Shown piece by piece: positions 2,385 to 61,406 of a DNA stretch of 64,000 nucleotides. Below the pieces are notes generated by a model that was given only the letters and a program-made list of their open reading frames with translations, was not told the origin of the DNA and did not search any database. Location of the stretch: contig CM028329.1 in NCBI GenBank assembly GCA_016647705.1, forward strand, positions 14,223,910-14,287,909. The letters run 5' to 3'. This DNA is from Eucommia ulmoides. Taxonomy: Eukaryota > Streptophyta > Magnoliopsida > Garryales > Eucommiaceae. The stretch's first letter is position 1, and each line of letters begins with the position of its first letter. A program made the translations under genes and the position numbers.

Positions 2385-3269
2385 GCAAACAACTCACCAA
2401 TTATAATAAATTGATAAGTTTCTTCTCACTCAGAGTTTCTACCACCTCAAGTTTATTTAAACTCAATTAATATCCCGATAAATACTAGTGACAGAATTAA
2501 GTGAGAAATTTAAAATCTAATTATAAAATAAGTGAGTAGCACACAATTGAACACGTAATCAGATTATCACCAAAATTGTTTTTTAAAATAATTTTTAAAC
2601 AATTTAAAGTTCAAAAACGATTTCACAATAATCTAGAATCCAAGCAAGAAATAATAATATGAAATAACAATTAAGAACAAAAGTTTGGAATGATCTTACC
2701 GGAATACCACTAAAAGAATGAAAATTGAATCGCATTAAAGCTTAGATCAGTGACAGTAAAATTCTCAGCACTGATTCTCAAGAACTTTTCTCAAGACAAT
2801 AAACTCTCGGTATAATATCAGAATAATGACTCTCAGAAAGCTCAGGAACTTATTTGTTCTTGATAGAATAATGTATCTCATAAGTGAAAAACGCATGTCT
2901 ATATAAACTGGTTTTAAACAAGCCCTTTAACGGCTAGTTCCCACAAGATATGACATTTAAATACTCATATAGATCCCATATATTAATATTACTCAATCTT
3001 GGTTCAATTCACTTGATTATAGCTTTTAAATCTTTCAATTTAGTACACCAAATATTTCTCAATCACAAATGAAACTAGATAGGAAGTATTGAATGTACCA
3101 ATTTGAGAAACACTTAAAATATTTGTACCATATCTATAGAGATATATAAGTATGAATGATATATCTATAAAATGTTCAAATCCCTAGAATATCTCCAAGA
3201 TATTAAGTAAAAAAGAGGCTAGTAACTGCTACTTTTAGGTAAAATCCTCGAAATCCTCAAATTTTGAAA

Positions 3270-3612
3270 CTGCATAGTCGGTTGACCGACCAAACCACCA
3301 TCAGTCGACCGATCGTTTCAGGTTGTAGCCCAAGCCATTTTCATATGCCAGTCGGTCGACCGATTTCCAATAGGTCGATTGACCGATCGATTCAGGATGC
3401 TCCTCAGGACATTTTTCGACCCTGGTCGGTTGACTGATCATCAACGGTCGGTTGACCAATCGATTCAGAGAGTTCACTTCTCATCCATCGGTTGATCAAT
3501 CTCTTTTGGTCGGTTAACCGATCGATTTAGAGACTTCTCCAATTCCCAGCCACTTCCCGTCGGTTGACCATTCTCTTTGCCATCGATTAACCGATTATTG
3601 CTAGATCTTCTT
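3270..3612. repeat. Cluster of GGTTGACC/GTCGACC-type palindromes (H1)
   Basis: About ten imperfect copies of a 12-14 bp palindrome of the form TCGGTTGACCGA or TCGGTCGACCGA are spaced 15-45 bp apart, for example near 3277, 3351, 3425, 3443 and 3508. The spacers differ from one another, so this is not a simple minisatellite. The same type of cluster lies in H2 (32419-32660) and H3 (48358-48662). Confidence 0.75.
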
Positions 3613-31700: not shown

Positions 31701-34700
31701 AGGCTCCACGAGGGTCATTGCACCATAGTGGGTGTTGGCCCAAAGGTCTACTCAAGAGAGGAGTGAATTGGATAGTTTTAAATTTAATCAAATCAATTAA
31801 ACGTGGCCGATTTTAATCTGATTAATTACGGAAGCAATATACTAAGCACATACAAACCAATAGGGATAGAAAGATGAGACACTAGAAATTTTATAGAGTT
31901 TGGAAAACTACTTTTGCCTATGTCTACTCCCATGAGCTCTCGTAGGGAATTAATTTACTCAACCATTGATTCTCTTACTAGATGAAAATTAAACCCGTAC
32001 ACTCCCAATTGAGTAAATTCGCTTTATACTCAATCACACTCTCACCCAGATCAGGTACATTTAGGTCTGAGCTAAAACCTTACAACAATACAAAAATAAA
32101 ATTCTTTGTTTTTTTCATAAAGAGTTTCTATCAACACTTAAAAAGATAAATTCAATTGAATGCCCGAATTAGGTGATAAAAGTGATCACGATTCAAAAGC
32201 TAAAAACATCAGTAATCGTGTTTTTTGAAATTTGGATTTTATCACAGTGGAGCTCGAAAATCACATATATCAGATAGTTCAAATCGTTGTTAACTCAATC
32301 GGATTTTCAAAAATAATGCCAGTGAGTTTTAAAAAATGATTTAGAAATATTAATCATGAAAACCGAGGCAAAAGATCTTCGAAAAATGTTCACGAAAGTT
32401 TGAAAATTAAGCCCAAAATAGTCGACTGCCACCGAAATAGGTCGATTGTTTGAAGATATGCCTCAAAAGTTCTGGGAACTTGTAATAACCAGTCGACTGA
32501 TTTCCTTGGTCAGTCAACCGTTTTGCTTCAAATCTCAAAATCTCTGGTCCCTTGAATCTATCGGTCGACTGTTTTCCAACTAGTCGACCGTTTCATCTCA
32601 ATTTTCAAAATACAGTTACAATCAGTTGACTGAATTTTTAGGCTAATTGATTGATTTTAACTAACTTAAGTTTTTAGCACATTTTAAGGCAAGTATTTAA
32701 GCACTTCTAAGCACATAATCACACACACATATATGCATATAAAAGCAGATTGGCGTGTGGTGAGTTATCCTAGTCGGGTTATGAAGAATTTAACAGTATA
32801 AGTGCTGTTTACCTTAATAATACAAAGCATAATTCTTGAAAAATGTCTTTTTCATCATGTATCTGAATTGCAGTGATCAGTCATATTTTTTGTTCCATGC
32901 TTCTCATTTCATCAAATCATTATCTTGATCCACTTTAAGTTTGGCTAATCATACTTAAAATACTGTAAACATATCTCAAACACAATATTAGTCCAGACAA
33001 ACATCTTAGTTAATTGAATCATCAAAACCATCAAAATTGGACTTGGATCCTTTAGAGTTAAGAGTGCGCCTTAAATAACAATGGCTTTAAGTTATTGGCC
33101 TTCCTCTCTTTATACCTTATTTTTTTTGGAAGATGGGTGGGTAAAATGATGACTTTTATGTGAGGGAGATTATGTTCCCTTGGGATATTTTGTGGTTGCT
33201 GTAGTAGCTTCTTTGCTTGGACACTTACTTGGAGGCTATTTTCATGGTTGATAATTTGAAGAGGAAAATCTTTTGGTTGCGGCGTACGTATGACGTGCTT
33301 GAATGTTGTGTTGTTGGGGCATCTTTTTATCTCGTCTAGTGGCCAGCAAGTTATGTTCTATGGTGTTCTCAGATGCCAAGATTACTGGTGCATGCCTAAT
33401 ATATGTAGAGAATTGATGTTTTACAGGAAAGGTGGATGCGCCACCAGAATATATATATATATATATGGGCGATGATCCCTTTTATCATGGTAAGATTAAC
33501 TCCAATATTTATGATGACATGGACCTCAAGATTAGAAACAAGGTTGCAGGGTAAAAAGGAAAACTGTTATCTTCTGGGGGTATGCTGCTCCTCATTAAAC
33601 ATGTGGCTCAAAGCATGAGTGTAATTGCTCATGGCCATTAACCCCCCTTGAAGATTATCAAGACTATGGAGATGATTTTTTTTCCCCAAAATTCCTTTTG
33701 GGGTCTACTCAGGAACAGAGGAGGAAGCATTGGAGGAAGTGGCTGACCTTTATCTTGGGTTTAATCAATCTCAGGATTGAAAGTTGCATTCTCTTCTTGG
33801 GGTGGACTCACCATGTCCCAGATGTCAACTGATTGCTCCTTCTGCTTCCCACTCTGGTTCCCCCCTCCTCTTCCTGAATCTGTTCATGATGGCCAAATTC
33901 TTCCGGCTGCATCTCCCATCCTTCCCCTTTTATTGTGGCCCAACAGTCCATCTTCTCTCTCTGTCCCCAGTTTCCAGTGATTTTTCCTCTCCCTGAGACA
34001 TTCACGGTCTGTCTTCCATTACAGATTCCTTAGGAGCTGCTACTTGGGGAATGATGTGATTGTTCATGGAATTGAAGATGCCAAGTTTACCTCCATTTTA
34101 ATTCCGGCACTTAGAATTACTGGCTATAGGAACTTCCTCAGTTTGTGCCTTTGTCATTCCAACCCTTTGTCCATTTGAACAATCTGTCCCTCAGAAAAAC
34201 AGGCTGTAGGACCCTTCACCGTCTGTGCATTTTCCTTAGCGGCATTGACCTTCAATAGAATAACTTTTGGTTGAATAATTTGTTTGCTTTGAGCTTTATG
34301 CTAATTATGTGTAATTTCAAAAGGGCACTCCTCTTTTGCATGACCTGGCCTCTGGCATTGTGAACAATATTTGAGCACATTCTCATACTTCATTTCCTGC
34401 CAAAACCTTTCATCACCACTTGCTATCCAGACTTTAATCAGAAGAGCTTGCAAGAAGTCAACTTCCATCGCACCCAAGCCAGACCATTCTAGTTGAATCT
34501 AATCTGATGGGCTTTATGGAAATTGTGCCTGATTTGTTGTAGAAATGGGTTGGCAAGTATGAGAGGGACGGCCTATGAGCATTGCAAGGTTCATGGTTGC
34601 TTGGAAAAGGACTCCATTTGAAAAGTCGCATTGGGTACCTGTTAAAGAACAGAATCTCTTAGAGCTACAATGTTTGGAAATCCTCCTCATTTTCCAACCT

Positions 34701-37700
34701 AATCAGCAGTATATATTGTATAATTTAACATTTGGCTAAGGGGCACATGCTCACTCATTAGTTTATCCTTTTCTTTTTTCTTGGATGATTTTTACTGCAT
34801 GTAGTTTGTACATGGCTTTTGTGTTGGAAATTATGGTAACAATACTAATTTAAATTAATATAATTAAATATTAATTAATATTATTTTTCAATAAAGATTT
34901 CTAAATATGTCAAATATATCTATACAATGAAATAATACTCATAAACTATAAAAATTCAACTCTTTGTGAAATTTGTTGTTGAATGTAACGTTTAGTAAAT
35001 ATTATAGAATGTAGAACAATTCACAACAAATATTTCTGAAACCCTTATATGCGATAGTAAATATTTCAGAACATAAAATTTACAATATTGAATATTATAG
35101 AACATTAACAAACATTATAAAATTATATTCTTCAACAATGAATTAAAATACATGAAATTGGTAAATAAATAAACTTATGCTTACAATCCTTTATGATGAT
35201 AATCTCATAAATTTATACCGATCGAGGTTATCGTTTAACTATATTTCCTTAAAAGGTGCTTACGGTTACTCACGCATTTGCTTACCAAGATACAATGATC
35301 ACAATCCTTCGATACTAGCACTCGAAATCAAAGAATACGGCGAACAAAATAGGTGTTGAACTCTCTCAAAATAATAGACTCAAAGTGTATGTGTAGTGCA
35401 ATATGTCCTAAATTTTTATGCCTAAATGATAATGCAAACTTATCTATTTATAGAGTAAACAAATGAATAACTCCAACACAGTAAACGTCTTACTTTAAAG
35501 TTACTAAGAATATTTTATAGTCACTAAAAATTAATTACATGTAACTCGTTGTAAAAAAATGAGTTATACATATGAAAAGACAAGTCTTGTTTGGTCAGGA
35601 AAATTACTAGAATCAATATAATGAAAATTCTAGAAAGAATTTTCTCTACTTGAATCAACTCAAGTCCAAACCCAAATCCACGACCCACTACCCTACCCGG
35701 CTCTGCAATCGAAAATAGATTATAAAAGTGGTATAAGTGTTTTTCATCAATCAATGTGGAATTACTCATTTTGCATACTTCAATCAATTTCATGGGACAA
35801 CAATTTTTCATTTATATTTTAATGATTTTTGACAAATCAATATTTCACGTTAGTATTCTCACTGAGAATAACGTATTGATATATGAAAATATATAAACAA
35901 ATAATTGAATCACATAAAAATAATTAGACTTAAAATAGTCTAAAATCATTTTTGTCTAACATTTTGCTCTACAAGGCATGGTCGGTTTGGCCCTTTATAT
36001 AACTATATCTCAGGTGTAGCTCAAGAAAAGCCCTGAAGCATGCTGAAGGAGGTTGCTTCAATGCATAAAAATAATCTTTTAATCTACAAACCACTTTGAC
36101 GGTCATGGAGGATACATGTACCTAGGAATATCCATATATTTGATATGACCATCGTCTTCCAAATGCCCAATTTTATATGCAAGTATATGGTTCTCGGAGT
36201 TATATTTCTTCAATACTTCTCTCTCTCTCTCTCTCTCTCGTTTTGCACCTGTGGAATGAATATATGGCAATGGTCCTGAGTTGATTGAGATTTTTACTTG
36301 ATATTTGTTGCCTTGTTCATGTTTTTTTATTGCTTTGGTAAACTTTGTACTGGGTTTCACAATTCTATGCACCGTTATTAATTTTTCTTTCCTCATTGTT
36401 TCAGCTAGTTGCATATTTAAATGAGCGTCTGATATCATTGGAAACATTGCAGCGTAATGGTGTCATGCAAAAGCGATCTGGTGATCAGGTGCAAAAGATT
36501 TGCTAGATTTACAAATATGCCTTTCTTATCTCTTATGTCGTGAGGCTTGCTAGTGCTGCTCACCTTCATCTTATAAGGTTCTATAACTTGTAGTGCTAGT
36601 GAGTCGATATGTTTATTTGTTATTTATTGTGCCAATAATTGAACCTCCTCAAACCATCAGTTACACTTTTGTTGAGCATTGTGATGTGTGTGAAAGTATT
36701 ACTATATTTTTGCTGAGCTGATGGGATATCACGACCTTGGTGGTTCTCTGGTGCAAAAAGTACCAGTTTAAATTTTGTAGTTTTCTCGTCTCCACAACAA
36801 ATTTCCTCTTTTTACTCCTTGTGCTATTGCAAAATGAAAAAGGAAAAGGTTGGGAAGAAAGGGGGAGGTAGGGAGGGGGAGGAAAAGATCCTGGGAAAGT
36901 GGGTCTTTCTTACAAGGCTGCTCCCTGGGAGGTCTTACTTGTACTGCATGAAGCCTTCGGATTATTTGATTGGTACCAGGAAATAATATGTATATATTGG
37001 GGTGATCTTTTGCTGAAAAATGTTGGCACTAATTGATGTCGGGTTGGCTTGCCCTTGTGATAAGCCAGATTTTGTTGATGATTTACATAGTTACATTATA
37101 CATTTGTCCCATGTTATGGGGATTATTGTGCTATTTACCACAATCTTTGACCTATTTGCATAAATTGAATACAATAATCAATTGAATTATTTTGTTAATC
37201 ATACAATATGAAACTACATATAGGAAAATATAGGAACCAAAAAAAGGTAACTAACTAATGACAATTAACTATTTTCCTAATATATATATTTGACTTCCTA
37301 TATACAAACAATCAATCAAATAATCAATTAATAATTAATTATTCCAACACTCCCCTTCAAGCATGTATGAAGATATCTTCTATTGTTAGCTTGCATACTA
37401 AGTAGTTGAATCTCTTCTTCAATAATCCTTTTGTTAGAATATCTGTGATCTGTTCGGTAGTCGGTACGTAAGGCATACATATTTGTTTATTCTCAATCTT
37501 TTCCTTAATGAAATGCTTGTCCACTTCAACATGTTTTGTCCGATCATGTAGCACCGGATTGTGGGCGATTGCAATGACTGATTTGTTATCACAGTAGACT
37601 TTCATAGGTTCTGGATTGAACATCTTCAACTCTTCTAGTAATCTGTTAATACATAACACTTCACAGATGCCGTGAGCTATGGATCTGTACTCCGCTTCTG

Positions 37701-40700
37701 AGCTACTTCTGGCTACGACATTCTGTTTTTTGCTCTGCCATGTGATGAGGTTCCCACCAACGAAAGTGTAATACCCGGATGTAGATCTCCTGCGCGTGAT
37801 GCTACTAGCCGAATCTGAATCAGTATATACCTCTACCAGTTGGTGGCCACGTTTTTTATACAAAATTCCTTTTTCGGGTGTACCCTTCAAGTACCTCAGG
37901 ATTCTATAGGCAGCTTCAAAGTGTTCTTGTTCCGTAGAGTGCATAAATTGGCTGATCATGCTAACCGCGAAATCTATATCTGGACGGGTATGTGAAAAGT
38001 AGATTAACCGCCCCACTAGTCTTTAATATTGTTCTCGGTTTATCACTGCTTCAAATTTTGCCGGTTGTAGCTTTTCATTCGATTCGCTTGGAGTTTTTGC
38101 TGCTTTGCACCCAAGTAGCCCTGTTTCATTTAGTAGGTCGAGTACATATTTCCTTTGACTCACAAATATGTATTCCTTTGATCTAGCGAATTCCATTCTA
38201 AGAAAATATTTCAACAGACCTAGGTCTTTGATCTCAAAGTCATACGCAAGTTTCCTTTTAAGTTTTCCCAATTCATCACTATCACTTCATGTTAAGATGA
38301 TATCGTCTACATAGATAATTAAAATAACAATCTTACCATCAATTGAGTGTCTATAGAATATAGTATGATCTGTTTGGCTTTGTTGATAACCATGACTTTT
38401 TACAGTAGTTCCAAAGCATTCAAACCACGTTCTAGGAGATTGTTTTAGGCCGTATAGTGATTTTTTTAGTTTGCACCCCTTTCCTTGTCCTATCTTTCTT
38501 TCAAAATCTAGTGGTAAACTCATGAACACTTCCTCCTCCAAGTCTCCATTTAGAAAGACATTTTTCACGTCTAATTGATGTAGTGGCCAATCAAGATTCA
38601 CTGCTCGGGACAATAGAATCCGAATCGAGTTTATCTTTGCAACTGAAGCAAACATTTCTTGATAGTCTATCCCATATGTCTGTGTGAATCCTTTAGTGAT
38701 GAGCCTTGCTTTATACCGCTCTATGCTTCCACTTGACTGTGAATACCCACTTGCACCCGACTATCTTTGTATCTTTTGGCGAATCAACTATTTCCCACGT
38801 ACCACTTCTTTTAAGAGCATTCATCTCTTCCAAAACTGCTAGCTTCTAACCTGGATCATCTAGTGCTTCCTCAATTTTCCTTGGAATAAACAAATTAGTA
38901 ACTTTAGAGATAAAGGCTCTATAAGGTTGGGAAAGTTTTGTGTAGGATACATATCTAGCTATGGGGTGATCGGTGCATGTTCTGACTCATTTCCTGATGG
39001 CTATAGGAATATTGAGATCTGAAGTAATACTGGACTGAGAAGGTTCACTAGGAGGTGGTAAAGAGATAGGATTACCTGAGTGAGTGGGTTTATTGGGAGA
39101 TGACAGAGAGATAGGATTACCTGAATCATTGCTTGGGGAGTCGGATTGACCTTGTGCTAGAATGGTAGGCTGATCTGTATTCTTCTTTGTATCTCTCTGA
39201 GTATAAACCCGCAACTCAGTACGTGATCGTGGTATTTCTTCATCTGTTCGTGAGGGAATTATACTAGTGTACTAGTAGGGATCCTTTTTTGTTTGTCAAT
39301 ATTTTCATCACTTGTTTTTGACTAATTTGGAGGAAAAATTTCTAAGACTGTAGTAGGAAGAGGATCATCAGTGACCAAAAAATTTTCTTCCATTAGATTT
39401 TCTCCCTGAAGGGGATTTTTTCAAAGAAAGAAACATGTTCCAAAAACTTGACATCCATATTAACATGAATTTTTTTTGTTTGTGGATTATAATACTTATA
39501 CCTTTTTTGATTTGGTGCATAATAGATGAAAACACATTTTTTAGTTAGGATCAAGTTTAGACCGAAATTGGCTGGGAATATGAACATAGGAGGTGCGGCC
39601 AAATACTTTAAGAGATAGGTCAACTGATTTCCTAGAAACTGAAAAATGTGTTTTGAAATTATCAAATGATGTGGTGTAGTTTAGAATACGTGTAGACATG
39701 CGATTTAGTAAATATGCAGCTGTTAAAAGAGCATCGCCCCACATGTATTTTGGAATATTCATAGAAAACATGAGTGCACGTGCGACTTCGAGTATGGGTT
39801 TATTTTTTCGTTCAGCGATGCCATTTTGTTGGGGTGTGTCACGGCATGTGGATTGATGTAGAATATCATTTGTTTTCAAAAAACTGTCTAAACGTTCAAT
39901 GAAATTTTCTGTTCCATTATCTGTGCGAAGAATGTTAGGTTTCATTTGAAATTGGTTTTTGTGCATAATGCAAAATTTTTTAAATAAAACTTTTACATCA
40001 GATTTTGCACGCATCAAATATGTCCAACATAAACGTGTGTGATCATCAATAAATGTCACAAACCATCTTTTTCCAGATAATGTTGTGATTTTTGATGGGA
40101 CCCCATATATCGATGTGAATTAAATAGATAGGTTTGGATGCATGATATGGTTTTGAAATATAAGAAGTACGCTGACTTTTTGCAAACAAACAACTTTCAC
40201 AATGAAAAGAAGAACAATTCACATTCTTAAATAAAGTCGGAAACAAATGTTTAAAATATTGAAAACTTGGATGTCCTAGTCTAAGATGCTAAAGGATGAT
40301 TTTATCACGAATAGACATTGAACTCATACAACTGGGGCCGTGAGTTGTTTTATTCCTTAAGAAGTTATCATTGAAGTAATAAAGGCTATCCACCAGTCTA
40401 GCACTGCCAATCGTCTTCCCCGAGCGTTGGTCCTGAAATAAACAATGAAATTCAAAGAACATGGCATGACAGTTAGAATCTCGTAATAGTTTACTGACAG
40501 ATAAAAGGTTACAAGTAAATTTAAGAACGTGAAGGACGGTTTTTAGATTAATACTATCTGAGATTTTTATTTGGCCTTTTCCTGTAATGGGTGAGAAACT
40601 TCCGTCTGCAATCCTAATTCTTTTGTTACCAGAACACGGTGAATAGATATTGAAAATGTGATAAAAACTTGTCATATGATTAGAAGCACCTGAATCGATA

Positions 40701-43700
40701 ATCCAAGGTGCTGAATTTAAGGAACAAGAAAAAGCTCTGGAGTTGTTACCTGTTTGAGCTAAGGAAGCATTAGGAGTAAGTATCGAATGATGGATTGACA
40801 ACCAGCAGTTTCAAAAGTTGATCAATCTACTTTTTGTTGAATGGAGTGGTTGCAACTTCATGCGCGGAAGGATAGGATCGGTTAGATTTTTCTCCTGACT
40901 TGTTGCTTTTCAAATTTGCTGGTTTCCCATGGATTTTCCAACATGTTTCTCATGTATGACGGGGATTGTTGCAGTAGTCACACCATATTCGAGGGCGTTC
41001 CTCTGCTTGGTGTTGAAACCTGCTGGAGCTAGCATTAGCGGCAGCCAAAGCGGACCTTGGGATGGATTCCGAGGTAACATCAGACATGGTGAAGGCAAGG
41101 GAAAAACATTGTCAGAGGTTGAGATTTGTCGGGTTGACCTTCAACGAATTAAGTTCGCGAGATGAAGGCCTGAACAACAACCGATTTCTTCTGCATTACT
41201 GCGATCGATCGATTTCCGGCTATAAGAGGCCCGTCGATGTTCGTCGTCGGCCGTAAGGGTTTCGGTGAGTGTTCGTCAGCGGCTATAGGAGACCGGCGAG
41301 GCTTCGTCGTCGGTTGTAGAGGGCCGGTGAGTTGTTTGTCGGCTGTAAGGAGGTTGCGATACGTTCGTTGTTGGCTGTAAGTGGCCGGCGAGTGTTCATC
41401 GGCGGCTGTAGGAGACCGGCGAGGCTTCGTCGTCGGTTGTAGAGGGCCGGTAAGTTGTTTGTCGGCTGGGAAGTAGGTCGGCGAGGCCTCTTCGCGGCTG
41501 TAGGATGCCGGTGGCTGCGTCGGTGGTGAAACAGGGCTGGCTAGGTCTAGGATTTTAATTTTAGCTCTGATGCCAAATTGAATACAATAATCAATCGTAT
41601 TTTTTTGTTAATCATACAATATGAGAGTACATATAGGAAAACATAGGAACCTAAAAAGATAACTAAATAATGACAATTAACTATTTTCCTAATCTATATA
41701 TTTGACTTCCTATATACAAACAATCAATTAATAATCAATCAAATAATCAATTAATAATTAATTATTCCAACATCATAGAATTCCTGGAATGCCATATGAG
41801 CCATGAAATACTATCATTGGGCATGCCAGCCAATAATTTTGCGTATTGGATTCTTAGGCACTCTCCTATGTTTATGTATAAATAAATATATGTGAGAATG
41901 AACAGAAAGATTGTTATAACTTATTGATAAACAAGAATTGGCCACTCTGTTGATGAAAGTGCAACCACTGCCCTGGATTATGCTCTCTTATAGTCTGCTT
42001 TATTTCATATGAGAAACATTACAAGCACATTTCAGGCCTCCATCTATTGCGTACTTTCTCTCTCTATTTATCTATCTATCTATGGAGGTGTGTCTGACAC
42101 TGTTGCCGGTGCCTATAACATAGAAATAAGTTTTGGACACAAGTTCTAAAATTACTCTTGCGCTCCCTGAAGAATGTAAGTAGAATCTGCTACATCTCTA
42201 TTTTTTCTCTCCATGCCATGACACTTGTAATGGAAATTTGAATTTGTAACTTTTTGTGCTAAGATTATGAATCCAAACATATTTATAAATCAAGTATTTG
42301 GTCATTACTTGTCATGCCGCTTGCAATTTTTATTTGATTCTTAATTTCATTGAACACTATTACCCGTTATACCATTTAATATGGGCTAGAATAAATATTT
42401 CATTCATTGTGTCCTCCTATATCCTACTTTTCTGAAATGTAGTTTTGGCATCTCCATGTGTTGTGTCATTTTGCCATGTGATGTTCATATCAGTGCTTCT
42501 TAGGCAGGATGTGCTGGTATTCAAGCAGCGGTTCTTCCTCAAGTCACCAGCTTGACTTGAACCTCTATTTTCTTATTTTACCTAAGCTAAGGCTAGTTTA
42601 TTGGAGAAACCGATCCATGCCTGTTCACTCAATGAAATAATGTGATAATTTAAGTTACGGTACCATCCCCTGCCCATTTTAACTATTTACCATGAGCGTA
42701 TTGCTTCTTCTTGATCATGCCAAATAAGAAAAGTATATCTCAGAGGAGGAGAACAGGCGCGATTCCCTGAATGTTACTTATTCAGTTTCAATTGCTGAGG
42801 AAGAGTAGATATTTATGTTTACATAGACTAACTCTATACTAACTTTGTTGGCAGGTTGTTATCGCTTTTCCTTATTGGCGAAATGGATCCCTTGTGAGTT
42901 GCAAGTATCGGGGTGTCGCGAAAACGTTTTGGCAGGTTATTGTGATTTAAGTTACTCCTTTTGTTTGTCATATACCCCCTCCCTACTTGGCAAGGAAATA
43001 TTATTTTGGATACTTAAGAAGAGTAATTAGGAAGCCTAGTTTTGTACAATTGCCATGTGCAGGTCAACTGAGATTGGAACCAGTGGGATGAATCTAAGGT
43101 CAATGTCTGGTCTCATGTTGGAAGTTTACCTAAGCTGTAGATCAGACTTTATGGTACCTAATATCTGTGGAATTCCTAAACTGACAAGTGACAATAATAA
43201 TGTAATTTGATCAGAAGGATTTGGAGGAGAAGAACAGCATTATTGTGCTGATTGTGTTTCTGATTTCTTTTGATGAATGTTACTTCCCTTGGATATCATT
43301 TTTACTCTTTCATGTTGCTTGAGACATGAGTATTGACACTATTGTTTCAAATTTTCTTTTTTGTCAATATGCAGGAAAAGGACACTGAAAAAATATTTTA
43401 TGGGCTGGATGATATAAAGGGTGCTACTGACATCATCATTGTAATATCTTAATGATTTACACGTTGCATGATTAAATCTCTTTTCTGTCCTACTGCATTT
43501 CATCAATTTTATTCGTGGTACATGTATCTCAAATCTGATCATAGGTTGAGGGTGAAATAGATAAGCTTGCAATGGAAGAGGCTGGTTTTCGAAACTGTGT
43601 GAGTGTTCCTGATGGTGCACCTCCTTCAGTCTCCACTAAGGAATTGCCTCCTGAAGAAAAGGTCTGTTACCTAAGCCTGAAAATCTTAACTTCTGTCACA

Positions 43701-46700
43701 AGGTGTAGACTCTGGATCTTTCCTGTTCTCCTAAATGGTGTTAGTCAATTTCTGTGACTGTAGAATCCTGGAATGAATTGAGTGCAAGTAGAAGAACTTC
43801 AGCATGAACAAAATCTGTCTCTCATCATTTCTGGATCTGGATCCTTTCTGCCGGGAAACATTTCATCTAATTTTCCCTTTTTTTTTTTGTTGTTTTTATA
43901 TATAAAACCAGGACAAAAAATATCAGTACCTTTGGAACTGTAAAGATTATCTAAAGAAGGTATGTTAATGTTCTTTTTTTTCCCTTTTCTTTCACCTAGC
44001 CCCTTTTAATAATTGAAAACGTAATTATTGATGGCATCATATTTTGATAGGCATCTCGCATAATACTTGCCACTGATGGAGACCCACCTGGTCAAGCATT
44101 AGCTGAAGAACTTGCACGCCGTCTTGGAAGAGAAAGGTTTATCTTGCGTACTGTAATGGTTCCGTCTTTACACTCTATGGCCATGATTTCTTTCGATGTA
44201 TTAATGCAGGGCTTTGGATGTTTCTGTGTTAACAGATGCTGGCGAGTCAAATGGCCTGAAAAGAATGAGAATGAAACTTGCAAAGATGCAAATGAGGTTT
44301 GGTAGCCATATTTTGTTACAGTCTTGGGTTTGTATTTGTTTGTTTCTTTTGACAATTAAGATGGGTACCAGAACCACTTTGTGCCAAGCGTTATATGGTA
44401 GAGTCTGGAGTCCTGTATAACACAGTGTTGTCATATCTGTTATGTAAGCAAAGATGCGTGCTTTAGAATTATGGTATGAATTTAGTTTGAAGACTGTCCT
44501 GGCTCACTTCAATAATAGGTAAAGTTTCATGTATTTTGTTCATGCAACAAGCTTGCAATGGAAAAAGTACACTAACATAATCTGTGTCCCTACAGTGTCT
44601 ATAAGGCATTGAGTAGCAATTCTGTGATTTTTTTAGGACTTGTCAGTATTTTTTTTTATAAATAAATTACTTGGATATGCTTGCATTATAATTGATCTAG
44701 GATTAGGGTTTTCTGTTTCGGTGAGAAGGAAAAGAGAAATGAATATAGAAAAGATAAGGAATCTGTTTGACGGTGATAGAATGTGGAGAAGTACAATTCT
44801 GTGGAGAAAATGAATGTTCCAACAACTCCCCTCAAGTTGGAGCATATCACTCTCTCATACATTTGCATACAATAGAATAAGAGAATTTAGTTCTTGGACA
44901 TCTGAGTTTTTTTGATGTGAGAAAGGTGTGTGGATCCATCTGGAATTGATCTCCCCTTTAATAAATTGTAGGTGGAGCTAAATATTCTTTGTTCTGTTAT
45001 TTTGAACTGGACTATGAGTGATATTATTATTGACCTCCTTTCTATCACAATGGAACCCCATATACTATTAAATCTTTCAGCAAAATTTGTATCAGAAGAA
45101 TTAATAGACTCCATGCGCCATAGCTGGGAACTCTGGTTCTGCACTTGACCACACCAGATTAAATTTTCTTTTGAAACGGTACAGTAAACTGAATTAGATC
45201 ATCTAATGTCTACAGTGACAGGAAATCTAGGTTAAAACGTAGTTGGAGTTAATTTTTTATTATAGCAGATTACAAGATTTCCCCATGTACTTTGATGGGG
45301 GTACAGTTTATTCTCGTCCACTTTTGACCTAAGCATTTAACTCCTCCGAACTATTCAGTATAGTGTAAAGTCACAAATCGTTAATTTTTGCAGATGCCCT
45401 TAAACACGTGCCTAAAGACCCTGCTCAGTTCAAATTGACTATTTCATAGATGATGATACATTTGTTTAATTTCAATATATATAAAATTAACTATGTGGAA
45501 ACTAAAAAGAAATGAATCCATAAAGGGAAAAAAGGAAAAAAAGTGTTGGCCTGGACTTGATCCAAGGGGCGGGGGATGAATTGTGTTATGGAATTTTTTT
45601 GTCTTTTCTTTTAACTCTTCAAGTTCAGATTACTTCAACCAATCGCTTTAATAGATAACGAATGTACAAATAATATGACGGCATTCATTTAATATATTGT
45701 TTGTCTCATTGTGATATATTCAACAATGTAATGCTGTGGAATAAAGTAATCACAATCCAAACAACACATAATAGTAAATCATAGGAGGATAGGGATCGAG
45801 AGAATCAACCAAATAACACACAAGGATTTTTATAGTAGTTCGGCAAAATCAATTTGCCTATGTCTACTCCTTCGAGCTCCCACGGAGAGTTTTAATCCAT
45901 TAAGTATTCGGATCTTCTTCCCCGATGAAGACCAAACCATTTCAATCTCTCACTAGGCAAGGTTGTTTATGCCTAGCTACTATCTCTCACAAGGTAAGGT
46001 CGTTTATACCTTGCTATACTCGCTCACAAGACAAGGTATGTTTTATGTCTTGTTACATTCTCTCACTAGACAAGTTACGTTTATATCTAGCTATAATATC
46101 TCACAAGGTAAGGTCGTTTACACCTTGCTACACTCTCTCACAAGACAAGTTACGTTAATGTCTTGCTACATTCTCTCACTAGACAAGGTACGCTTATGTC
46201 TAGTTACAATCTCTCACAAGGCAAGTTATGTTTATGCCTTGATACAATCTTACCAAGGTTCACGCCCCTGGATTTCCTAATCCCTTTCCCTAGGCAAAGA
46301 TCACGCCTAACCAAGGTTCACCACCTTTGATTTCTCAAGTACAACAATAATCAATACAACTCCCAAATAAGCAAATACATTTACAACAATAAGTACACAA
46401 AACTCAACTAATCCGTATCTACTCTTGAGATTATAGAGATTCAGTCTCCTGAATAATCTCTTCTCTGTAGAGATTTGGCCGATTAATTTATCGATTCTTC
46501 TCTTTGAGTTCCTCATCACTCGGCTCAACAAAGTTCTACCTTTCATCTTTTGAATAGCTTCCTGACAAGATGTGTATATGATATGCAAACGCTTGACTGT
46601 CTAAGTACACTGGATATGTGACTTCAGACTTTGTGAGCTGTCTCAAAGTTTGACAGAGCTTCTAAACACTCTTTTTAAAAATGTATATAAAAAATAAGCC

Positions 46701-49700
46701 ATCTTGTGTTTTCTACTCAATGTATATAAAAAATAAGCCATCTTGTGTTTTCTACTCACATGCCATGTACACTTTATTTCATGAGTGTTCTTCAAGTGCT
46801 AAGTGTAAACTAGACTAATGATATTCTCATTAAGGTTCAATTCTAGTTTTAAGATTCAACCCATTTATGTAAACATTCAATCACTTTTATTTGTCAATCA
46901 CACAAGGAGAATATAGCATGAATACGTGGTGAAAATGATCATGATGCACACAAGCGAGAGCGAGTAGGAAATCACAACATAATGTTCAAGCTAATTGGTT
47001 CGCCTTTTTCAACAAAGATCAACATGGGCAACTTTACGTTCATAATTAGCTTGGATGTAGTGCACACTTCATTACTTATATGATGTCATCAAGTAAGTAC
47101 ATGTGATACAAATATTCAATTTTTTACTACAGCTCAACGTATAGCATGTATGATTCTTTGCATTATAGAGCTAAGACACTCTTCAAGATAACAATTTCTT
47201 AGAAAGCCAAGTGAAAATGTCCAATTTAGCGCACCTCTTATTGGAATACGCGAGGGATTTAAGATTTCAATGAGTAACTTAATCTTGCTGGTGGTGCGAA
47301 TTCTTCCCGTGTCCAATAGACCAATTCCAATGAACTCATGATTAAGTAGAAAACCTTTTTCATGTATCTTAGAAAGCTCTTTAGGTTTTCCCAAAACGTT
47401 GGATTTTCCAAGTAATGTATTCAACTCTAATAAAGCACAATTTGAAAATTCATTGTTATCACACAATCAATTTTATATACTTTATCACCAAGAGATATAG
47501 ATATGACCAATATAAACAACTTCTAGTTGTATAAATGTGCATACAAGTAGATTAATCATCTCACCTAGCATGGATATACATAAAGTGTCTAGACAAACAA
47601 GTTGGAGCATGTAAAGCATGATCTAGACTTTTTCAATTAAGCACATTATAAACATGTTCCAAGATTTAAACAATTAAGCGCAAAGTAATGTATAATGAAA
47701 CAAACTCACCGGATGTAATGATAAATGTGGGCATGTTGCATCTTCCAGGATGACTAATTTTCCATCTGTTGAACTCCCTCGAAACCTTAGAGTATCAAAA
47801 GGTTTGGCTTGAAAGACCTACTCTAGGTTTGGCACTGATAAGATGACACTTTTGTTTTTGTAGTATTTTCACACACTATATCACTCATTTAAGAACAAAG
47901 AGGTGTCGCAAAAGGATGATAAATATATAGCAATAAAGTTCAGACCCTCATTCTTGTGAAATTTGTGCAATTAAGTGGGGTTTATATAGGGTTGGTCAAG
48001 GTAGTGACTGTTACACCAAATTTGGGATCAAAAGGCTGTTAATCTGTTACAATTAATTAATTAAACGTTATAGGCATGAAATATGATCACTAATGGTCAT
48101 CTATAACGTTTCAATTTGGTTAATTTGGGCAAGAACCCGTTGGGAGACAATGTGCATCAAGAAAGGCTGAAATTTAGGGTTCAGAAAATGGAAACATTTG
48201 AACATCAGATTTACCTTTTGATTTTGATTCATCTTTCGTAATTCTTGTTTCTAATGATAGGAAATATATTCAATTAAAGATTAAAACCATGTACAATAAA
48301 TTTGGTGTTCAAAATAAGGTCGAATTTGATTTTTCCCTCAATGTGTACCAACAGATCCGGTAGATCGGTTGGCGGGTTTGGCTAATCGGTTGACCAATGT
48401 CCTTGAAAGGTTATTCTGGAAATCCTACTTGTGTGATCGGTTGACTAAGTTAGATGGTCGGTTGACCGATTGCGCTGAATATACCTCTTTGAGACCTACA
48501 ACCATAATCGGTTGATTGGTGCACCTATCGGTTGACCTTCGATTGGAGTTTTTCTGTAACCGTTTAGCTAACTTGTGAAATCGGTTGACGGCTAAGGCTA
48601 TTTGGTTTTCATTTAGGCTAATGGTTGGATCGGTTGACCGGTTGGGGAAATCGGTCGACTACTTTATGCAGGATTTGGTTTTTTGCCTATTTTTACAGCC
48701 GATTCTTAATCAACCTCAATTATCTGTCTTATTTTCAATCTTAATCATTTTAGACATTTCAACACACATATTTTCAACAAATAAAAATGCCACATAATAA
48801 TGCAAGTGTGTTTGTTTCCTAGAGGCTTATCTTAATATACTTCTCAAGTTTGAGATTGTCATTACCTTAAGAATCGATCTTTGTAGTGGTGTAGCTTCTT
48901 GATCTTCTTCAGTGCAATGTCCCAATCTTCTTGTGCTTTTCATCTTTATGGTCTTTCTTCATTGTTCACAGTTTCTGTTGTGAGTTTGTACTTTGGTGCT
49001 TTGGTTTCTTGCAAGATCACTTACTTAAGACTACTATCATGATTAGTACATGGTTAATACAATCAACTTATTTAATCAAATATATTCCCGAATGATCTTG
49101 TGTACATAAACATAGCATATCTAAAGAATCTCAGGTAATCACATGTATCACATATGCATGAATAGTGATATCTTATGGATGACATAGATTGATATGGTGT
49201 AGTTGCATAATCACATAAAATATAAATATGTAGACATATAAGCATGATATAAGTATGATACAACTTAATCTATTACATTAATATCCATAGACATATAAGC
49301 ATGATACAACTCAGTCTGGCCCAGCTTCTCTTTCCTCTGCCTAAGATTTGACAACCTAGCCAGGCCTTGATCTGCAGCTGATCCAAACTTCACCTTTCAG
49401 TTCATAAATACACCCCTAATACTCTCCATTACCAAATATATTTTATTTTGGACAGAATGCTGCACCCCGTCAAAACAGATCTTACATCTCATTTTCCAGA
49501 TTTTCCAATGCTGAACAAAGGCACCACCTGATACAAAGCTCTAACCGAGGACCAGGTTTATGCCACCGAACAACAAGCAAATAAAATAAGGAACTAGTAG
49601 TCTAAGGCATGCCTTACATTACAGCAATATGTAACCAAATTTGCTGAGCAAATTCATCATTCTAAAAAAAATGAGCCAGTTTCTATAGCTGGGGCATTAT

Positions 49701-57460: not shown

Positions 57461-59520
57461 TCAAGCTGGAGAATAGATATCTTCCATTCTTAGCTTGTGA
57501 ATAATTCCACGAAAAGTTGCACTGTTGAGTCCTTTGGTCAAGATGTCTGCAAGTTGGTTCCCTGAAGGCACATAAGACATGCAAATCAGACCTGCTTCCA
57601 GCTTTTCTTTGATGAAGTGTCTGTCAATCTCGATATGTTTCGTCCTGTCATGTTGTACCGGATTGTGAACAATGTTTATTGTTGACTTGTTGTCACAATA
57701 CAACTTCATAGGACCTTCCCACTTGATTCTCATATCATCCAAGATGATCTTTAGCCACAACAATTCACACAATCCTTGGGCCATTGCTTTGAACTCTGAT
57801 TCAGCACTAGACTTTGCCACCACATTTTGCTTTTTACTCCTCCATGTTACCAAATTTCCACCAAGAAACATGCAATAGTCAGATGTCGATCTCCTATCTA
57901 TTGATGAACCTACATAGTCTGCATTTGTGTAGACTTCCAATGTGAGTTCATTATTCCTTTTGAATAGAACTCCTTTTCCCAGGCTACCTTTCAAGTAGTG
58001 TAACACACGGTAGGCAGCTTGTAGATGACTCTCTCTCGGATCATGCATAAACTGACTAATGACACTTACTGCGAATGCAATGTCTGGTCGAGTATGAGTA
58101 AAGTAGATAAGTTTTCCTACCAAACGTTGGTACATCTCCCTATCAACGGTTGGTTCTTCTTTTGCTTCCCCTAGCGTTTGGTTTGGTTCAATAGGTGTAA
58201 CTACTGGTTTACAACCAAGCTTCCCTGTTGCTTTCAAGAGATCCGTCATATACTTTTGCTGTGAGATAAAAATTCCTTGTCTTGATTATGAAACTTCCAT
58301 TCCAAGGAAATACTTGAGCCTTCCAAACTCATTTATCTCAAATTCCTAGATCAAACACTGTTTCAGATGTTGTTTCTCTCCCTCATCATTTCCTGTGACA
58401 ATAATATCATCAACATATACCAGGAGGGCTGTTACTCCTCCTGTTGCTGAATGTTTGATGAAGAGAGTTTGATCTTCTTGACTCTGTCTATATCCTGTTA
58501 CTTTCATTACTCTAGCAAATCTTCCAAACCAAGCTCTAGGCGATTGCTTTAGTCCATATAGGGCTTTTTTCAATCTATACACCTTGTTAGTCGTTCCCTT
58601 TCCTTCAAATCCTGGTGGAATACTCATGTAAATTTTTTCTTCTAGGTCACCATGTAGAAAGGCATTCTTCTCATCATATTGTTGAAGTGGCCAATTGAAA
58701 TGAGCTTCTAAGGGTAACAAAATTCTCACAGTGTTCATTTTTTCCACATGAGCAAATGTCTCCTGATAATCAACTCCATTAGTCTGAGTATAGCCCTTAG
58801 CAACCATTCTTGCTTTATATCTCTTCAGAGAACCATCGGCCTTGTATTTTAAAGTGAAAACCCATTTGCAACCCACTAGATTCTTCCCTTTTGACTTATC
58901 AACAATCTCTCGAGTATTTTTTTTTCCCAACGCATCCATTTCCTCTCTCATAGCATTTTGCCACTCCATTTTTGACAATGCCTCAGATAAAGTGTTTGAA
59001 ACAGAAATAGTGTATAGACTCACAATAAATTTTTTATGGAGTGGTGAGAAACGTTTAAGTGACACGTAGAGGGATAATGGATATAAATGACGTTTAGTGC
59101 ATTTTCTAGTACCTTTTCTAATAGCAATAGGAAGATCAAAATCCTTTTGTGATGTTTCAACAAATGGTATATGCAAGGGTGAATCAAAACTTACCATGTC
59201 TTCATTAGCAGGGCACAGGATGTCATTTTGATCTTTTGCCAGGTCTGGAACATCTGTTTTTCTTGAGTACACCTTAGGAAATCTATGAGAGTCATAAATA
59301 CGAATAGGCGCTGGAGTATGAACAGGTATTGGCGGGGGCACAGTTTCTAGGACAGACACGGACTCGGGAATTGAGACAGACTCGGACTCGGTGGAGGTTG
59401 GAACATTTTGTTTTTGAGTGGGTGGAGATGAAGTCGAGGGTAGATCAAGAGACCCAAAAGAACCAAGATCACCACTATAGTCCTTATTTTCCATAAGTGA
59501 AATCGCCCCTTGAAGATAAG
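57461..59520 (-). pseudogene. Copia-D reverse transcriptase and RNase H, nearly intact
   Basis: One minus-strand frame runs through 58346-59520 and 57461-58249, broken only by stops near 58346 and 58285. It has WVFTLKYKADGSLKRYKARM, the YDEKNAFLHGDLEEKIYM segment (Glu where most family members have Val), intact YVDDIIVTGND (about 58395-58415), SSAESEFKAMAQG and HDRTKHIEIDRHFIKEK. The Pro/Ser-rich linker before reverse transcriptase lies at about 59200-59450. Confidence 0.92.
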
Positions 59521-60300
59521 ATTGTGAAATATGGTTTGTTTTCAGTAAAGGTGACATCTGCAGATATGTAAAATTTTCTAGAAGGAGGATGATAACATTT
59601 ATACCCTTTTTGCGTAGATGAGTAGCCAAGAAACGCACATTTGATTGCCCTAGGGTCCAATTTTCCTTTATTTGGGCTATGAACATGGACAAAAGAGGTA
59701 CAACCAAAGACTCTAGGTACAAGACCATTTGATGTTTTGACGTGAGGATAAAATTTTACAAGGTTTTCTAAGGGAGTTTTGTAATCTAATGTTCGTGAGG
59801 GTAGTCTATTGATCATATATGGGGTAGTAAGAACAACCTCCCCCCAATAAGATTTAGGAACATTCCCTTGAAATAACAACGCCCGAGTAGTATTTAGTAA
59901 ATGGCCATTTTTCCTTTTAGCTACCCTGATAGGGACAAATTATTCATGACTCTTCTAGGTGTTTCAAGATAGTAGAAGTCGTTCCTTTCCTTAGTAAGTC
60001 CAATCTTCCTCCCTGAGCCCTGGTCCTGAAAAACACAGTAGGAGGGATGAAAAATTGCCTAACATTTTAGGTCTTCTGTGAGTTTTTTAATTGAGACAAG
60101 ATTTGCAGGCAATTTGGGTGCATGAAGAACTTTTTTAAGGACAAGGGAAGGTGTCACATGGATATCTCCTAACCCTGCAACTATAGCAAGGGAACCATTG
60201 GCAACAATAATTTTCCTACTACTAGGACACGGAGTATAATTTTTGGAAGACTGTGAGGTGTAAGTCATGTGATCTGTGGCCCCCCGAGTCAATTACGCAA
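59484..60300 (-). pseudogene. Copia-D protease and deleted integrase remnant
   Basis: The protease reaches IDSG and is then knocked out of frame by a sixth base in a C run at 60280-60285 (five would restore GATDHM). The frame 60059-60292 continues with LVSIKKLTEDLKC. The pre-integrase end (FYYLETPRR) near 59970 is joined directly to NGHLLNTTRALLF near 59900, so the zinc finger and the whole DDE core are missing. The C-terminal part (59484-59879: WGEVVLTTPYMINRLPSRTL) is intact. Confidence 0.88.
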
Positions 60301-60317
60301 GAGTTGGTTAAACACTT

Positions 60318-61406
60318 TTATGAGACATGTAATCCAAAAGGAAGTGAAGACTTACCTGAGAGTGCCAATGAACAATCACTAGAAGGAAGAGATCCTATTA
60401 AGCCTTTGAGTTTTTCAATCACTTCATTATTGAGTCCTCCTTTCTTATGTCCCTCGTTTTGGTTGATTTGTTCTGTCAAATGAGCCTGAGATTGAGTTCT
60501 CTGCTGACCTCCACGGTTTCCCCATTCTTGGCTAGGTGGTTCACCATTCAACTCTCTTTTGTATGCCTTGGTTTTTTAAAGTAGACACACAACAAATTAT
60601 CTCTGTTGTCCTTCCGTTGATTGGTTTTGTTGTCTCTACCCAAGGGCCTTGATAGGGCCGCTTTCCCTCTTTCTTGCCCCGGAGGTTGTTCAGTTTTAGT
60701 TGACAAAGTTGAACTGTGTAAAGCTTGAGGCTCGAGCATTACACCCGTTCGATTTTCTTCTGCGTGGATTAGAGAAATCGTCTCCTCCAAGGAAGGTGTT
60801 TCCTCCCTGCCGAGTATTTGAACCCTAACCTGATCAAATTCTGTCCAGCTAAGAAATCATATACATGGTCCTTCTCGATAAAGTTCTTCAAGGTGGTAGC
60901 ATGTTTTGAGCACTTCATCTCAAATACCTGGTAGTGATCAAGTTCTTGCCATAGATTTTTCAGCAAATTGGCATATTCTGTCACTATTTTGCCTCCCTGT
61001 TTGGCAGCACTTGTCTTCACTTTAATCTCATACACTTGGGCTGCATCACAAGCTTTTGAGTAGGTTCGCCAAATGGAATCACAAATCTCCTTTGCAGTTG
61101 TCAGAAACATACAAGTATCACTAATTGCAGGATCCATTGAGTCCCATAACCATGACATGATCATGGAATCAGCTTCGTCCCATGCATTAAACGTCGGATT
61201 CCTTGTTTTGGTCTTGTCCCGAGAAGATGGCTCAACCTCCCTTTGCCCTTCAGATACGTTTTAACAAACTGAGACCACTTGAGATAGTTTATTTCAGTTA
61301 ACCTATATGTAACTCGAACACTCTGCAACTCTCCAGTCATCGGATTCGAGTTGACCTCATCAGATGGAATAGAGGTATTTGAAATTGTGGTAGTTTCAGA
61401 GGCCAT
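60318..61406 (-). pseudogene. Copia-D gag remnant
   Basis: Starts MASETTTISNTSIPSDEVNS at 61406, with TYRLTEINYLKWSQFVKTYL (the capsid N-terminal motif), then WLWDSMDPAISDTCMFL and KTSAAKQGG after a frameshift near 61170. The nucleocapsid region with CVYFKKPRHTKES, where the first knuckle residues are altered, lies at about 60548-60600. Two or three frameshifts. Confidence 0.88.

Follow-up and report, generated by a model that had tools for sequence, protein, structure and literature searches.

Tandem hairpins with matched stem differences in an old Sirevirus-type LTR of Eucommia ulmoides

The window (the whole stretch of 64,000 nucleotides of Eucommia ulmoides DNA analysed here, from contig CM028329.1 of assembly GCA_016647705.1) carries eight tandem units, each with two 7-bp arms that can pair across a loop, as the initial annotation had described them; the interpretation offered there missed the fact that the array lies within an LTR. 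A free-standing minisatellite is out: the array sits within a dispersed LTR of ~3.75 kb. Repeat detection with TRF places it at 45943-46250, with a period of 38 and 8.2 copies, and also finds a 113-bp (three-unit) period, so that the eight units amount to fewer independent cases. The units are 37-39 bp long and are laid out as a spacer (TCTCTCA, or near it, on the plus strand), a 7-bp arm, a loop of 10-12 nt mostly ending TTTA, and the second arm; loop and spacer are mostly similar from unit to unit, and the claimed likeness of the loops holds. The features of the LTR and its array are as follows (hairpins of units 1 to 8 from sequence and fold):

45543..49290, minus strand: Sirevirus-type LTR, ~3.75 kb, far end approximate (boundaries common to copies)
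45562..45582, minus strand: C-rich stretch near the LTR 3' end, like the Sirevirus "integrase signal" (judged by eye)
45824..45836, minus strand: TATA-like motif, sense ACTATAAAAATCC, following the array by ~110 bp in LTR sense (motif match)
45842..45858, no strand assigned: single hairpin GGCAAA-N5-TTTGCC beside the TATA-like motif (seen in the sequence)
45943..46250, minus strand: tandem hairpin array, 8 units (repeat detection, copy comparison)
45953..45976, minus strand: unit 1 hairpin, CTAGGCA-10-TGCCTAG
45990..46013, minus strand: unit 2 hairpin, CAAGGTA-10-TACCTTG
46027..46052, minus strand: unit 3 hairpin, CAAGACA-12-TGTCTTG
46066..46090, minus strand: unit 4 hairpin, CTAGACA/TATCTAG, one DNA mismatch (C.A), which is G.U on the minus strand
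46104..46127, minus strand: unit 5 hairpin, CAAGGTA/CACCTTG, one DNA mismatch (A.C), which is U.G on the minus strand
46141..46165, minus strand: unit 6 hairpin, CAAGACA-11-TGTCTTG
46179..46203, minus strand: unit 7 hairpin, CTAGACA-11-TGTCTAG
46217..46241, minus strand: unit 8 hairpin, CAAGGCA-11-TGCCTTG

In the window copy 54 of the 56 arm cells are Watson-Crick pairs. Six of the eight units pair perfectly while using five arm sequences, and three arm pairs vary on both sides; both statements had been made from the letters alone and both are borne out. Permuting the right arms among the units reaches 54 cells in 8 of 40320 arrangements and six perfect units in 16 of 40320; on the seven distinct arm pairs, 4 of 5040 permutations do as well. 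Read on the minus strand over 8 pairs with G.U allowed, 98.4% of the cells are paired, as against 26.6-50.0% when the partner is slid, and 0 of 500 shuffles equal this. Nine cells are changed on both sides, a count that 0 of 500 shuffles reach; the tallies of pairs altered in both arms (three; 183 of 500 shuffles as high) and of further pair types (six; 437 of 500) do not rise above shuffling. The right arm of one unit matches the left arm of the next at 4-6 of 7 pairs, as compared with 6-7 of 7 within a unit.

Searching the genome with the array gave 46 matches from the best 40 scored of 354 candidates, and an array-independent search with the flanks gave 17 further copies from the best 40 scored of 688 candidates. 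Among the 57 loci, 44 were kept (both flanks present, array of 100-600 bp) and 13 dropped. The 44 arrays align as nine ordered slots, many of them with one or more units missing or fused. The window array lacks the first slot (slot 0): most other copies have an extra unit at the 45943 side, with letters at all arm columns in 39 of 44 rows. Some arrays are longer: that of L061 measures 381 bp and has extra units, while that of L071, which L049 resembles, measures 414 bp, has its first unit repeated and contains an AT run. The tree of the copies built from their flanks is star-like, with long terminal branches, and among 322 ungapped units of the 44 arrays 53 pair perfectly by Watson-Crick rules, 115 as sense RNA with G.U allowed and 89 as antisense RNA.

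What kind of LTR is this? Similarity of the copies to the window spans 45543 to about 49290. The sense strand of the window LTR is the minus strand; its 3' end, ..GGCCAACA, lies at 45543, and the last ~30 bp at its far end, present in other copies, are not recognisable. In its sense the LTR ends ..CCAACA, followed in six of the 57 copies by ATTGG and a tRNA-Met-like PBS. The marks of a Sirevirus, in the accessible part of the source (PMC2829016), are the junction CA/ATTGG/TATCAGAGC, a TATA-type box and a stretch rich in C close to the end of the LTR. That junction form is found at the LTR ends of the same six of 57 copies (L005, L008, L016, L018, L020 and L023), with its ninemer 1-3 letters off: CA-ATTGG-TATCAAAGC in L018, CA-ATTGG-TATCACAAC in L016, CA-ATTGG-TATCAAAAC in L005 and CA-ATTGG-TAATGGAGC in L023; in some loci the loose junction pattern matched other places too. 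There is no PBS beside the window copy, which may for that reason be a solo or truncated LTR; a PBS junction is not expected beside solo and 3' LTRs. A C-rich stretch like the integrase signal, which in Sireviruses lies ~21 bp from the LTR 3' end, was recognised by eye; it is of the CACCCCCTCTCTTGGGTC type before several LTR ends and reads CATCCCCCGCCCCTTGG in the window copy. A polypurine-type stretch, AAAAAAAGAGAGATTGTTG, stands at the second LTR of one copy (the C2 element); as the same source has it in its accessible part, the Sirevirus PPT is followed by AT and the TG of the LTR, and several PPT copies occur (PMC2829016).

The array keeps its distance from a TATA-like motif. With up to two mismatches, ACTATAAAA occurs 105-110 bp after the array in 37 of the 44 copies, while a single shuffled control has a match anywhere within the searched 140 bp in 10 of 44; in form the motif is of the Sirevirus type (cTATAA/TAT/AAg-like). 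The fixed distance makes it most likely that the array is in U3, just upstream of the promoter ("promoter" being assigned from the TATA-like motif), and the genomic RNA of an LTR element carries U3 at its 3' end. Farther into the LTR, at 46680-46758, TRF finds an exact 39-bp duplication (100% matches), which is perhaps recent relative to the rest of the copy.

The insertions are old. Two elements have a partial second LTR downstream, at ~11.7 kb (C2) and at ~1.4 kb (C4), and in the stretches examined the array part was not seen in either of these second LTRs. K2P distances between the LTRs of a pair are 0.22 for C2, 0.25 for C4 and 0.36 for C28 (flanks only, and if it is one element), from which the age follows. 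The ~11.7 kb between the LTRs of the C2 element (L053, L055) show no copia domain or gag-pol in the pieces searched: tblastn of eight copia pieces of the window against L053-L056 gave no match, and of the 26 stop-to-stop pieces of at least 75 aa from L053 and L055, the 10 compared with Pfam contained no family. C2 is possibly a large non-coding derivative. Decayed copia pieces lie on the minus strand of the window at 36103-40801 and 57461-61164 (protease, integrase, RT and RNase H-like, by eye); no link was found between these pol pieces, on the same strand, and the array LTR.

The slots carry a small set of founder unit types. By position, the arms of slots 1-8 are CTAGACA, CAAGGTA, CAAGACA and CAAGGCA, with full partners except in slots 1 and 4, where TGCCTAG stands opposite CTAGACA; the resulting A.C mismatch (as DNA) is present in 18 of 37 copies at slot 1 and 23 of 41 at slot 4. 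As whole pairs these can be rare: CAAGGCA/TGCCTTG is seen in 2 of 30 copies at slot 8, and CTAGACA/TGCCTAG in 2 of 33 at slot 1. The founder types differ at three pairs, on both sides each time, and three matched changes in the active lineage are well supported. Two more, at slot 0, are on weaker ground. That slot is a mixture: pair 10-30 is A-T in 14 of 42 copies and G-C in 10 of 42, and pair 11-29 is A-T in 19 of 42 and G-C in 10 of 42; at position 30 the commonest right-arm letter mismatches the commonest left-arm letter; and the exact full pairs CAGAACA/TGTTCTG and CAAGATA/TATCTTG occur in 1 and 2 of 39 copies. When the slots are compared with one another, variation is seen at 9 of 14 arm positions and at 4 of 24 others (Fisher p 0.005); minus slot 0 the figures are 6 of 14 and 3 of 24 (p 0.05), and for the informative positions of the window copy alone 6 of 14 and 5 of 24 (p 0.27). 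Spacer and loop thus seem to have been held more than the stems, which seem to have changed both halves together, by few events, in the lineage that gave rise to the copies. Paired change in a stem around a conserved loop is the usual look of a selected hairpin, and the founder events are few.

The window also contains part of a second LTR of this kind:

31734..32080, minus strand: portion of another, related LTR, limits judged by eye (79% over 62 bp next to the TATA-like motif)
32008..32034, minus strand: hairpin ATTGAGTA/TACTCAAT of the second LTR (8-bp perfect stem)
32047..32069, minus strand: hairpin CAGATC/GGTCTG of the second LTR, one T.G (sequence)

Known from a single copy, this LTR has a TATA-like motif and then, at the place matching the array, two hairpins with array-like loops. 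The first is ATTGAGTA-AATTCGCTTTA-TACTCAAT; its loop, AATTCGCTTTA, is close to the AGTTCGTTTA of array copies, and its stem, as read from the sequence, has four pairs unlike those of the nearest array type, each of them matched. The second is CAGATC-AGGTACATTTA-GGTCTG, with its wobble on the antisense strand. An imperfect version of the GGCAAA-N5-TTTGCC hairpin occupies the same place in this LTR as in the first. Scanning 222 kb (the window and 16 loci, both strands) with the loop pattern found 27 perfect hairpins with at least six pairs. The four common arms account for 19 of them; the others are u1, the one of the second LTR, and six with other arms seen once each, which may include chance matches to the pattern.

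Was pairing still being kept after the copies had dispersed? Four near-duplicate copies were excluded from the decay test, leaving 40 of 44. The pairs that are constant across unit types in slots 1-8 (8-32, 10-30, 11-29 and 14-26) provide 1092 cells, with one side changed in 220, both sides in 22, and 11 matched doubles; shuffling the partners among copies leads one to expect 20.9 and 9.9 of the latter two. Matched doubles at constant pairs are at chance level. The variable pairs have 62 matched doubles versus 22.6 by shuffling, and slot 0 has 30 versus 18.8 (in each case 0 of 2000 shuffles as high, relatedness uncorrected); these seem to reflect mainly copies with another unit type in the slot. 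Loop length tends to switch together with the arms in slots 1 and 3 (at slot 1, ten-nt loops go with T-A/A.C in 12 of 12 and eleven-nt loops with A-T/G-C in 5 of 9), which suggests that units were swapped whole between copies; slots 2 and 8 are less clear. Counts on the tree give matched doubles in register of 7.8 on internal branches, versus 0 when slid, and of 36.7 on terminal branches, versus at most 1.4. Because many of these fall in copies that have a different unit type at that place, and because the tree is star-like, the shuffling counts are preferred. Within slots, the values for the arms and for the rest are 0.830 and 0.855 (p 0.04), and in slots 4-7 0.876 and 0.860: the arms decay slightly more than the rest, and overall nearly alike.

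The initial annotation had held that pairing itself is maintained, by selection on a hairpin or by templated repair within a cruciform; it had called for unit-by-unit alignment of the copies with a covariation test, and had named arms that vary without their partners as counting against it. Such arms are plentiful in the dispersed copies (the 220 one-sided cells) and leave the founder types unaffected. What survives of the claim concerns the time before dispersal, when stems changed among the founder types yet remained paired; it does not extend to the present copies. Cruciform repair in situ is unsupported. Copies as old as these (LTR pairs 0.22-0.36 K2P apart) should have undergone it in the chromosome, and the lack of any sign of it, with matched doubles at chance, argues against it.

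The explanation that we consider best, and to which we would give about an even chance, is that these are palindromic boxes in an old Sirevirus-type U3 whose stem pairing was selected during active transposition. The boxes would be hairpins with a 7-8-bp stem and a 10-12-nt loop, separated by a spacer, loop and spacer being mostly alike between units. In the active element, selection would have held the stems paired and let their letters change, as the matched changes between unit types and in the second LTR suggest. After insertion, decay would have gone on without a pairing constraint, with loss or exchange of what were probably entire units. Since all eight units pair singly on the sense strand, selection may have acted on the hairpins as RNA, at the genomic RNA's 3' end, where they might have served in packaging, dimerisation or 3'-end handling. 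This RNA form would be the less sure part of the reading, and the strand argument for it is suggestive only.

The strand argument runs as follows. When units are taken singly, all 8 pair as sense RNA and 6 of the 8 as antisense RNA. On the minus (LTR sense) strand, the mismatch in unit 4, that in unit 5 and the one inherited in slots 1 and 4 all become G.U. Single sense units all fold in the same register, at -7.4 to -11.5 kcal/mol; as antisense RNA, unit 4 is nearly lost, at -2.2 kcal/mol, and the folds of units 2 and 5 are shifted. Folded whole, the array reaches -84.8 (z -4.3) as sense RNA, -71.2 (z -4.0) as antisense RNA and -38.2 (z -4.5) as DNA. Only units 1, 5, 6 and 8 form in the whole sense array (mean pair probability 0.93-0.99), units 2, 3, 4 and 7 having pair probabilities of 0.04-0.14, and units cross-pair in the fold; the whole antisense array also forms four (units 1, 6, 7 and 8). 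A strand bias of wobbles as proof of selection on RNA was dropped: at constant pairs it is non-significant (sense 74 versus antisense 60, p 0.26), and on the tree the sense and antisense wobbles number 24.7 versus 23.5 on internal branches and 106.9 versus 84.8 on terminal ones. The array has no match to a known RNA family in Rfam; the two weak matches in 45400-49400 lie outside it and score far under the gathering threshold. The whole-array fold, with its four of eight, and the weak slot-0 types have lowered our confidence in selection on pairing. A bolder proposal is that the row of hairpins, with like loops and spacers and with stems kept paired but distinct from their neighbours, would constitute a new class of structured RNA within Sirevirus genomic RNA. 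Each hairpin would fold locally during synthesis, loop contacts would serve packaging or dimerisation, and two or more LTR types would have such a row. An equilibrium fold that forms only four of eight counts against it, its standing has been reduced accordingly, and we regard it as unlikely.

If pairing was not selected, why should the two halves of a stem change together? The main rivals are template switching in the active lineage and dyad-symmetric enhancers. 1) In the first, quasipalindrome correction, whether the work of DNA polymerase or a step in reverse transcription, would have rewritten one arm from the other with no selection on pairing. Such switching can make and mend stems with multibase compensatory changes, as the accessible text of PMC8794818 describes it, but the constant pairs of the old copies show no matched excess (11 versus 9.9), so that it has no visible rate on integrated DNA. 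The stem boundary on the loop side is constant, moreover, with unpairable A15 and A25 modal in all nine slots, where copying across arms might be expected to lengthen the stem at times, and most differences among unit types in the window involve a single pair. We judge this rival unlikely, while taking it seriously. 2) In the second, the boxes are DNA sites, dyad-symmetric enhancers for dimers of a transcription factor, and it is the symmetry and not the pairing that matters. The fixed distance of the array upstream of a TATA-like motif suits this proposal, as does a whole-array RNA fold in which the full set of hairpins is not favoured, and Sirevirus repeated motifs, palindromic and upstream of TATA, have been read as possible cis-acting activators (PMC2829016, in its accessible part). 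A fixed factor, on the other hand, prefers a fixed half-site, and the half-sites of the window differ at three positions while the centre is mostly alike; nor does symmetry alone explain the joint change of the two halves of a unit. It is somewhat less probable than the first. Least probable, and in our judgment very unlikely, is that nothing was maintained and that a few palindromic founders, arisen by chance or inverted duplication, were spread by tandem duplication, the covariation being shared ancestry of whole units: the three-unit period, the tendency of loop length and arms to switch jointly in slots 1 and 3, the decay of copies without matching and the small number of founder events all fit, but a shared spacer and most of the loop derive the unit types from one unit, and three (perhaps five) pair differences on both sides stand against about one matched double per 20 one-sided changes in decay.

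How does the reading favoured here, palindromic U3 boxes selected for pairing, sit with known systems? The array is like the palindromic repeated motifs (RM) of Sireviruses, as presented in the accessible part of PMC2829016, in being a cluster of palindromic LTR boxes upstream of a conserved TATA box, in an element with the Sirevirus 5'LTR/PBS junction and a C-rich stretch near the LTR end. RM are there said to number eight or more per element when LTR and linker are counted jointly; the window LTR has eight boxes. It is unlike them in the following respects: 1) its arms are without the CGG-CCG core, although Tnd-1, listed as RM, also lacks it (same source); 2) it is no CpG island (45943-46250 has a GC of 0.383 and six CpG, observed/expected 0.55), and some CpG may have been lost in so old a copy; 3) its arms are 10-12 nt apart, with several arm sequences per array; and 4) it lies at ~3041-3348, and its TATA-like motif at 3455, of 3748, in the last fifth of the LTR and not in the upper half and middle. 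The hairpin-forming palindromes of Sirevirus LTRs in a 2016 study, as relayed in the accessible part of PMC10760457, are alike in kind and place, but their motif is CACCGGACNNNGTCCGGTG, quite different from the array arms, and compensatory change between boxes is not described in that part. Template-switch hairpins share the matched changes in stems, but are the product of a mutational process, of which the old copies of the array show no sign (PMC8794818, as far as its accessible text goes). Tnt1 and Retrofit likewise have tandem repeats upstream of a TATA motif in a copia U3; these are not described as hairpins with covarying stems in the accessible part of PMC3601003. More broadly, the accessible portions of the open-licence literature on plant LTR palindromes, a narrow sample, do not describe covarying stems in LTR boxes. 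Sirevirus LTR palindromic boxes have been read both as enhancers and as silencing triggers. One can think of the array as a natural experiment in which the letters were altered and the pairing kept; together with an active relative, it could separate pairing from sequence. On our best reading, what is new here is the presence of several stems around one kind of loop in a single array; otherwise it is a variant of the palindromic repeated motifs of Sireviruses.
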